64,000 nt of DNA. Origin: Actinomycetes bacterium. Its GTDB lineage: Bacteria > Actinomycetota > Acidimicrobiia > Acidimicrobiales > RAAP-2. A program made the translations under genes and the position numbers. The notes beneath the pieces were generated by a model, which saw only the letters and a list, made by a program, of their open reading frames with translations, had not been told where the DNA came from and searched no databases. Within the stretch, counting starts at the first letter, position 1. The number at the start of each line of letters is the position of its first letter. The stretch lies in contig JAJYSP010000009.1 of NCBI GenBank assembly GCA_021793515.1, positions 1 to 64,000 of the forward strand, given 5' to 3'. Shown here one piece after another: positions 33,992 through 39,274 of this stretch.

Positions 33992-34279
33992 CTACCGTCG
34001 CCAGAACGCCGGTGGCCGCGCGTGGGCGTGGTAGTGGTCGGGGATGTTACGCATGTGGTCATCGATCGTCCACTGGCCGACGCCGAGTTCACGGTCGGCC
34101 ACCGCCGCGAGTCGTTCGTGGAGCTGTCGTTTGAGATCCTCGGGCGGCGCGGCGTCGTGGTTACGCCACACCACCATGGGCACGAGACAGATCTCGCAGT
34201 CCGCGATCCAACACAGCTCGTCCTCGACGTAACGCGTCGTGATCACCGCCGCTTGGCAGAGTTCACAGTCGTCGTTCAC
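33992..34279 (-). CDS. Small protein with two CxxC motifs
   Basis: A 95-residue protein translated from a GTG that overlaps the kinase-like gene stop (GTGA). It has CELC near residue 5 and CEIC near residue 28, probably one zinc or metal site. An acidic/aromatic middle and WTIDDHMRNIPDHYHAHARP, rich in His, follow. I do not recognise a named family; the His-rich end is faintly reminiscent of HIT-like proteins, but the diagnostic HxHxH is absent. It ends the chain of coupled genes that starts with the cysteine desulfurase. Confidence 0.65.
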   Translation of the reverse strand: MNDDCELCQAAVITTRYVEDELCWIADCEICLVPMVVWRNHDAAPPEDLKRQLHERLAAVADRELGVGQWTIDDHMRNIPDHYHAHARPPAFWRR

Positions 34280-36153
34280 TTGACGTTGACGATGATCGTG
34301 GACCGGTACGGCACCATCGTGCCCGGCGCCGGAATCGTCGATACCACCTTGGTCCAAGTCCCGTTGGCCGATCCCGGCCCCTTGGTGTGGAAGAAGAGGA
34401 CGGCTTTCTTGAAGGCCGCGAACGTCTGGGACTGATCCATGCCGATCACGTTGGGTACCGGCCGCGGTCCGGTACCGGCGACCGTCGTGGTCGCGGGTGC
34501 GGGCGTCGTCGTGGGCGTCGTCGTGGTCGGCGCGGGCGCAGTGGTCGTGGACGACGTCGTAGTCGACGTCGTGGTCGGTGTGGGACCCTTGCTCAACGCA
34601 AGCACAACCGTCGCCCCTGGGGGCACGCTCGCGGGGTTTGAGAACCCGTGGTAGATCACCGAGACGACCTGACCCGCAGCGCGAGAACTCACGACGTAGG
34701 CCGTGCTCGGACACGTCGCGGTGATCCCCGCCTTCTTGAGCGCCGCTGTTGCCACGGCACAGGTCTCACCGACCACAGTCGGCAGTGTGACGCGAGCGGC
34801 GCCGTCTGAGACGGTGACGGTCACCACGGCGCCGGCCTTGGCGGAGCTGCCCGCCGCGGGCGACTGGGAGATGATCTCGTGGGCGGCGATGGTCGTCGAG
34901 CGCTGGTGACCGGCGACGCGCACGGTGAGCCCCTCGGCGCTCAACTGGCTCGCCGCCTGGCTCGTAGTGAGACCCACCAGCGATGGCACGGTGTGGCTCT
35001 GCGTCAACAGTCCGGACTTCCACACCGCGGCACCCGCGACGGCCGCGATCAGCACGATCGCGGCGAGCACGAGCGCGGCGCGCCGACGGCGCGGCGCCGG
35101 CACGATCGGGTACGGCTCGGAGGCGCGGGCGCGGGCCCGCGCGTCGGCGGCCGACACCCCCGGGGGGACCTGGCGGGCCGGTTGGGGACGCGGGAAACGT
35201 GTCGCCGGTGACTCGTCGTGATCGGAGCCCGCTATCTGTTCGGCCGACGGCGCGCGGAACCCGATCGAGGTCCGCGGCTCGGAGGGTTGATAGTGCGCGA
35301 GCAGCGGCATCATCCGGTTCACGGGCGTGATGGCCAACGGGGAGGGATCGGTGACACTCGCGGTGAGTCGGTTCGCGAACTGCTCCGCCGAGAGGCGAAG
35401 CAGCGGATCGGGGACCGCCGCCTGGGCCAGGATCATGTCGAGGGTCCCGAGCTCGGGGCGGATCGGCAGCGGCGTATTGATCCGAGCCCGCAGCATGGCG
35501 TCGGCCGACACCGCATCGAAGGGGGCTTCGCCCGTCGCGGCCTCGAACAGAATCAACGCGAGGGCGTACACGTCGGACTTCGCGTCCCCCGGTGCGCCCT
35601 GGGCCTGCTCGGGGCTCAGGTAGCGCACGTCGTTGATCGAGTAGTGACCCGGGTGCATCGTGCGCAGCCCCGACATGGCGACGTCGCTGACGCGCACACC
35701 ACCATCGTCACCGATCAATAACTTGCTCGGCGACAGCGATCCGTGAACGATCCCGTTGGCGTGCAGGTACGCAAGGGCCGAGGCCACGTCGCTGCCCAAC
35801 TTGGCGGTGTCGCCGACGTCGAGCCGACGGCCCGCGGCCAACACGTCCTCGAGCGAGCCACCGCTCATGTACTCGCTCACCACGAAGATCGAGCCCGATT
35901 CCTGACCGCCGTCGAAGACCCGTGCGAGGTGCGGATGGCTCAACGTCGCCGAGCGGATGATCTGGTCGCGGAATGTTCGGCGTACGTCTTCGTGCTCGGC
36001 CAACTGCGGGAGCAGGACCTTCAAGATCACCGTACGGTGCAGGGTGCGATCCTCGGCGACGTAGACCTCAGCCGTCGACCCGACGCCCACGGTATCGGTG
36101 ATGCGGTAGCGACCGACGACGTCATGACCGGGTGCGAACGTGTAGGTAGACAT
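34276..36153 (-). CDS. PASTA-domain serine/threonine kinase-like protein, probable pseudokinase
   Basis: A 625-residue membrane protein built like PknB/PrkC: kinase-like domain (about 14-270), basic linker, one transmembrane helix (about 358-378), extracellular PASTA domains (about 386-450 and 453-521), a Thr/Pro-rich stretch and a third PASTA domain (about 563-625). The glycine loop (VGVGSTAEVYV) and the ATP lysine (VILKVLL, K45) are present. The catalytic loop reads HGSLSPSKLL where active kinases have HRDxKPxN, so the base Asp, the Lys and the Asn are all replaced. The helix-C Glu position reads Gln, and DFG reads DVA. The protein should bind muropeptides and perhaps nucleotide without transferring phosphate. 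Confidence 0.85.
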   Translation of the reverse strand: MSTYTFAPGHDVVGRYRITDTVGVGSTAEVYVAEDRTLHRTVILKVLLPQLAEHEDVRRTFRDQIIRSATLSHPHLARVFDGGQESGSIFVVSEYMSGGSLEDVLAAGRRLDVGDTAKLGSDVASALAYLHANGIVHGSLSPSKLLIGDDGGVRVSDVAMSGLRTMHPGHYSINDVRYLSPEQAQGAPGDAKSDVYALALILFEAATGEAPFDAVSADAMLRARINTPLPIRPELGTLDMILAQAAVPDPLLRLSAEQFANRLTASVTDPSPLAITPVNRMMPLLAHYQPSEPRTSIGFRAPSAEQIAGSDHDESPATRFPRPQPARQVPPGVSAADARARARASEPYPIVPAPRRRRAALVLAAIVLIAAVAGAAVWKSGLLTQSHTVPSLVGLTTSQAASQLSAEGLTVRVAGHQRSTTIAAHEIISQSPAAGSSAKAGAVVTVTVSDGAARVTLPTVVGETCAVATAALKKAGITATCPSTAYVVSSRAAGQVVSVIYHGFSNPASVPPGATVVLALSKGPTPTTTSTTTSSTTTAPAPTTTTPTTTPAPATTTVAGTGPRPVPNVIGMDQSQTFAAFKKAVLFFHTKGPGSANGTWTKVVSTIPAPGTMVPYRSTIIVNVK

Positions 36154-36167
36154 GGGCAGACCCAACC

Positions 36168-39274
<3,107 letters not shown>

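Follow-up and report, generated by a model that had tools for sequence, protein, structure and literature searches.

The window (the whole 64,000-nucleotide stretch of DNA that we analyzed, from an Actinomycetes bacterium of the order Acidimicrobiales) encodes a PASTA receptor with a kinase domain that has lost its catalytic loop residues. We think it rather probable that this protein is a receptor that spans the membrane once, that it arose from an active PASTA kinase linked to ligA, and that its kinase domain is now a conserved, catalytically dead binding module. The enzymatic core is lost throughout the genus, yet the remainder of the protein is under strong selection, and this suggests that the receptor now signals through the partners it binds and not through phosphorylation.

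The receptor, its catalytic motifs, and its gene neighborhood

The open reading frame spans 34276-36153 on the minus strand, with an ATG at 36153, and encodes 625 amino acids with Pfam Pkinase and PASTA domains. The Pkinase match covers residues 16-224 (96.2 bits, cut-off 31.7). Together, Pfam, AlphaFold2, and Foldseek place the pseudokinase domain at approximately residues 16-265 (35359..36108, minus strand). An AlphaFold2 model of this domain, built from a shallow alignment of 9 rows, has a kinase fold (pLDDT 84.7, pTM 0.86), and its best Foldseek matches are structures of PknA and PknB (TM 0.76-0.80). By sequence and fold, the best PDB matches of the protein are StkP, PknB, and PknA. The kinase domain is followed by a juxtamembrane motif that was defined from aligned orthologues (PRTSIGFRAPSAEQI, residues 293-307, 35233..35277, minus strand) and by a predicted transmembrane helix at residues 359-377 (35023..35079, minus strand), which is the best hydrophobic 19-mer (hydropathy maximum 2.79). 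The remainder (34276..34992, minus strand) would be extracytoplasmic and contains a Thr-rich linker and three PASTA domains at approximately residues 388-450, 455-522, and 566-624 (C17:34804-34992, 34588-34791, and 34282-34458). Pfam finds three PASTA stretches at a maximum E value of 0.01, and two of them pass at 0.001. Thus the full PknB/PrkC-type architecture that had been claimed for this protein in a preliminary description is present, and we infer the usual topology of a PASTA receptor, with a cytosolic kinase fold, one membrane helix, and PASTA repeats outside the membrane.

The same architecture of kinase, transmembrane helix, and PASTA domains is found in the PknB/StkP/PrkC kinases (NF033483, PknB_PASTA_kin), but the window protein lacks their catalytic Asp, Lys, and Asn, their helix-C Glu, and the Gly of DFG. 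It scores 280 bits on NF033483, below the curated cut-off of 450. The score cannot by itself tell dead proteins from intact ones, because two of the three intact ligA-linked relatives that we scanned miss it as well (L110 scores 465.1, L109 445.6, and L108 413.6).

The catalytic motifs read in the translation as the preliminary description had reported them. In the catalytic loop, HGSLSPSKLL (residues 137-146), the base Asp is replaced by S139, the Lys by S141, and the Asn by K144. The helix-C Glu is replaced by Q64 (in FRDQ), and DFG has become DVA (157-159), which retains D157 and loses the Gly. The glycine loop (GVGSTAEV) and the β3 Lys (K45, in VILK) remain, as had also been noted. So, of the residues that are expected in an active Hanks-type Ser/Thr kinase, the β3 Lys and the DFG Asp are present and the HRD Asp, the loop Lys, and the Asn are not, which makes phosphotransfer by the standard mechanism very unlikely.

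Three Pkinase matches, the pseudokinase among them, occur in the genome itself (G000; 43 contigs, 97.65% complete). Whether it also encodes an intact PASTA kinase was a question raised at the outset, and it does: P0002 is a 630-amino-acid PknB with four PASTA domains, intact HRDVKPGN and DFG motifs, an intact helix-C Glu, and an NF033483 score of 600.9 bits. By eye, the open reading frame ahead of it resembles a penicillin-binding protein. The third match, P0003, is a 509-amino-acid kinase with HRDVKPSN and DFG motifs and no PASTA domain. We also noticed a protein at L009 697-2055 that carries several PASTA domains and whose C-terminal part resembles DPBB_1 (25.5 bits, below the cut-off of 28.8); its gene adjoins an open reading frame that, by eye, resembles ksgA.

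Upstream of the pseudokinase gene lies ligA (36168..38330, minus strand), which encodes an NAD-dependent DNA ligase according to Pfam. Of 59 loci from the genus, 55 have a ligA gene upstream in the same orientation, and the other 4 have fewer than 70 bases of upstream sequence (contig ends). On the other side, the stop of the pseudokinase gene overlaps by 4 bases an open reading frame for a 95-amino-acid Cys/His-rich protein (33992..34279, minus strand). This protein contains CELC and CEIC pairs and a C-terminal HYHAHAR; it has no Pfam match over the cut-off and no NCBIfam match, and its AlphaFold2 model is poor (pLDDT 53.1). Its gene is downstream in 49 of the 59 loci. Among the 10 misses, 6 have at most 71 bases downstream, three have gatA instead (L029, L068, and L073), and at L065 neither gene occurs within 568 bases. 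An SDR gene was seen in 43 of the 59 loci. The 95-amino-acid gene is conserved beside dead and intact ligA-linked kinases alike.

Loss of catalytic residues in the genus and the family

A protein search covered 61 genomes of the genus, the window's own among them, and 57 of these have an orthologue. In the other four (G018, G024, G045, and G052, with completeness of 75, 73, 95, and 89), no orthologue is among the matches listed and the best listed match is PknB-like. From the 57 genomes we read 59 open-reading-frame pieces, 54 of which cover the catalytic loop. None of these 54 loops has the triad of Asp, Lys, and Asn; taken singly, Asp occurs 6 times, Lys once, and Asn never. All 24 of the PknB orthologues that we compared (the genome's own and 23 that we fetched) keep the triad, so the dead loop is not due to chance or to sequencing error. 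Two further members of the genus that came from the family search (L104 and L105) are dead as well. If relatives share the HGS loop, as the preliminary description proposed to check, they do so in part: a dead loop is found throughout the genus, but it is not always HGS. The base position is S in 14, A in 13, E in 12, G in 6, D in 6, and T, N, or R in 1 each, and the loop His is Leu in 15 of 54.

Some other parts of the active site are more often kept. The β3 Lys is present in 48 of 55 rows and the DFG Asp in 53 of 54, while the helix-C Glu is present in only 4 of 55. Lys stands in place of the loop Asn in 41 of 54. The Ala of the VAIK motif, which is invariant in 22 intact orthologues, is mostly Val in the dead genus (V 0.65), and this change may narrow the nucleotide pocket.

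Because the β3 Lys and the DFG Asp are retained, the pseudokinase might still bind ATP or carry out unusual chemistry. One such reading is that it senses nucleotide, with ATP binding switching its conformation or dimer state without any chemistry. The window protein and most of its orthologues in the genus do keep the glycine loop, K45, and D157. But the β3 Lys is lost in 7 of 55 rows, some orthologues that occupy this locus have altered glycine-loop glycines, and the residue at the VAIK Ala has changed, and we consider this reading unlikely. Alternatively, ATP might be bound in a rewired site (K45, D157, and the new K144) that supports low or unusual activity, such as weak phosphotransfer or AMPylation. 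The frequencies of the β3 Lys, of the DFG Asp, and of Lys in place of Asn would fit this, and there are precedents in SelO and SidJ, two pseudokinases described as having new chemistry (PMC12599244). Against it are the variability of the base position across the 54 loops, the loss of the helix-C Glu in 51 of 55 rows, the losses of the β3 Lys, and the frequent replacement of the VAIK Ala, which together leave it quite improbable.

Outside the genus, most relatives are intact. A relative was found in all 61 of the family genomes that we searched (6 from the window's genus and 55 from 20 other genera). The 55 genomes yielded 56 loci, since G104 was read twice: it holds two copies (L140 and L147), one near LigA and the 95-amino-acid gene and the other near the 95-amino-acid gene only. 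This census leaves out L162, L165-L168, L170, and L171, which are ordinary PknB orthologues, and L169, a fragment without the loop. LigA and/or the 95-amino-acid gene is nearby at 51 of the 56 loci, and the five without are all in genus g4. Using the equivalents of K45, the loop Asp, Lys, and Asn, and the DFG Asp, 49 of the 56 loci are intact (column 159 of the census alignment is misaligned, so the DFG states were taken from other readings of the loci). One more, L164, has an intact loop on a contig that lacks the N-lobe.

The remaining six loci are dead, and they come from five genomes of genus g10 and one of the six genomes of g7 (L112). In g10 (L149, L151, L154, L155, and L157) the loop reads HGA, the β3 Lys is replaced by Arg, and DFG is altered. 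In L112 the loop reads HSAITPTNLL and the β3 Lys, helix-C Glu, and DFG are kept; with only its catalytic loop broken, it is possibly at an early stage of loss. The preliminary description had held that relatives with a normal HRD motif would count against a dead kinase. Such relatives are common in the other genera (the 49 intact loci) but absent from the genus itself (0 of 54 loops). Because intact relatives occupy the same locus in sister genera, we conclude that the window pseudokinase descends from an active kinase; this does not make the window protein active.

We used quick trees, with SH-aLRT support only, to ask how often catalysis was lost. With the catalytic columns masked, the window's genus (g1) forms one clade (support 95) beside the intact g18 (94); g10 lies beside L108 (100), whose loop HGDLKPSNLL retains the triad; and L112 groups with L116, an intact member of its genus (86). 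A single loss common to g1, g10, and L112 was rejected (AU p = 6e-56), as was one common to g1 and g10 alone (p = 0.0098), although these p values are generous because the groups were named after the motifs and the first tree had already been seen. The tree of LigA (midpoint-rooted, and so unrooted in effect) agrees in placing L112 with L116 and g10 with L108. However, it places the intact g18 (L148) among other intact genera instead of beside g1, and g1 and g10 plus L108 can be neighbors, in which case a shared loss would require the triad to have been regained in L108. Given this disagreement, catalysis was lost at least twice (L112 being apart from the rest) and, judging from these trees, probably three times.

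Selection and conserved surfaces

The dead kinase domain is constrained like its intact orthologues, though less than PknB. Among the close relatives (L014-L018), six full-length pairs give a dN/dS of 0.050-0.081 for this domain, and two part-length pairs give 0.022 and 0.066 (the pair of the window with L024 repeats the one with L014, with the same values and probably the same genome, and was counted once). Four further close pairs from the genus give 0.032-0.068, one deeper dead pair gives 0.134 at a dS of 1.44, and two pairs from the dead genus g10 give 0.011 and 0.031. For comparison, six intact ligA-type pairs give 0.036-0.122. The value for PknB is 0.024 from the one pair used; the pair G000/G026 was left out because G026 has several PknB copies. 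Within the receptor, PASTA 1-2 have dN/dS of 0.152-0.280 in the six full-length pairs and 0.073 against L016. For PASTA 3, which is covered by three of the full-length pairs, the values are 0.032-0.120, and there are no amino acid changes against L016.

Gene decay on the way to loss, which could account for the four genomes of 61 with no orthologue among the matches listed and for the varying catalytic residues, is very improbable and we reject it, given a dN/dS like that of intact relatives, the absence of stops inside the matches listed, the stable gene order, and the newly fixed residues. It is just as hard to believe that only the PASTA ectodomain and the juxtamembrane motif matter and that the kinase fold is a spacer: PASTA 3 and the juxtamembrane motif are indeed conserved, but in the full-length pairs PASTA 1-2 are under weaker constraint than the kinase domain, which also has fixed residues of its own. 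These include I65, G82, and Q84, from a comparison of 49 rows of the genus to 22 intact orthologues, in which the positions of I65 and G82 are Ala and Trp (the 49 rows leave out L068, L069-L071, L074, L105, and the part-length L075-L079 and L082).

A surface that PknB uses for dimerization is also retained. We take R15, L38, and D81 of the window protein to be equivalent to R10, L33, and D76 in the back-to-back dimer of PknB. (PDB entry 3f69 is a PknB chain in which L33 is changed to D.) Within the genus, R15 is kept in 55 of 55, L38 in 53 of 55, and D81 in 55 of 55. Since these residues are equally conserved in the intact orthologues and in PknB, their conservation is no specific sign of a heterodimer; pairing is permitted, not proven.

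In the juxtamembrane motif, R294, S296, G298, F299, and P302 do not vary among the orthologues that were aligned (19 of 19, from a set of 31). A strict pattern for the motif matches 50 of the 55 open reading frames from the genus and is absent from 5; it also matches all six of the other dead proteins and 13 of the 50 other loci of the family census (intact ligA-type). It matches none of the 23 fetched PknB orthologues, and chance matches appeared in 181 of 4100 shuffled linkers. Diverged copies escape the strict pattern among both dead and intact proteins (L044, L069, L074, L124, and L135). We do not rely on the association between the pattern and kinase loss (Fisher p = 0.0008), as the species are not independent.

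A candidate mechanism and its relation to known systems

If the kinase domain is a dead binding module, as we favor, then the receptor might work as follows. The PASTA domains would bind a ligand from the cell wall, and the pseudokinase would dimerize, either with another copy of itself or with the cell's own intact PknB, via the N-lobe face that PknB uses. The juxtamembrane motif (SIGFRxPS) would draw in a partner, perhaps once PknB has phosphorylated this segment. The receptor would then tune PknB or assemble a complex for wall synthesis without phosphotransfer, with PknB as the prime candidate partner. Every step beyond the protein being catalytically dead and under selection is one that we infer. 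For PknB, the dominant hypothesis is that a ligand drives the PASTA receptor to dimerize (PMC6428115).

A comparable case is MviN, another actinobacterial membrane pseudokinase. According to the review PMC12599244, its pseudokinase domain (ActPs3) is phosphorylated by PknB, recruits FhaA, and forms a back-to-back dimer. According to the same review, ActPs3 loses the β3 Lys and DFG; the window protein keeps the Lys and the Asp and carries a PASTA sensor. EssB/YukC likewise spans the membrane once and is a pseudokinase that serves as a scaffold, but it is a component of type VII secretion with a degraded glycine loop, and its description in PMC12599244 makes no mention of PASTA domains. The window protein does not match ActPs2 as defined there (β3 Arg, HRD Asn, a DFG deletion, and insertions of 32 and 250 amino acids), as it has K45, HGS, and DVA and no such insertion. 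Nor does it match ActPs3 (all catalytic motifs degraded and a deletion in the activation loop), as K45 and D157 are kept; for the activation loop the comparison is ambiguous, since its activation segment is several residues shorter than that of PknB. By the features tested, which include the retained β3 Lys and DFG Asp, its sequence lies outside ActPs1, ActPs2, and ActPs3 as the review defines them. Seven families of bacterial pseudokinases are annotated in PMC12599244, where PASTA turns up a single time, in the reference list. Among the papers listed from the openly licensed literature on bacterial pseudokinases, PASTA, PknB, and Acidimicrobiia, we found no PASTA pseudokinase in titles or in the beginnings of abstracts, and one may be described elsewhere.

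In animals, receptor tyrosine pseudokinases of the HER3 type combine an ectodomain with a dead kinase domain and act beside active paralogues. They differ from the window protein in being of the tyrosine-kinase type and in having ectodomains unrelated to PASTA. More tentatively, and with more doubt than confidence, we suggest that the ligA-linked PASTA kinase of this family has an ancestral non-catalytic function as a receptor or scaffold, exerted by its kinase fold and juxtamembrane motif, so that catalysis was dispensable and was repeatedly lost, and that the pseudokinase pairs with the housekeeping PknB as a heteromeric cell-wall receptor. If this is true, then the pair of PknB and the pseudokinase would be a bacterial counterpart of the animal pairs of receptor pseudokinase and active kinase. 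PASTA kinases are commonly viewed as sensors that signal through phosphorylation. The repeated loss of catalysis, with the fold, the receptor, and the gene order under selection, is a natural experiment on the scaffold versus the kinase role of these proteins, and the intact near relatives are its controls.
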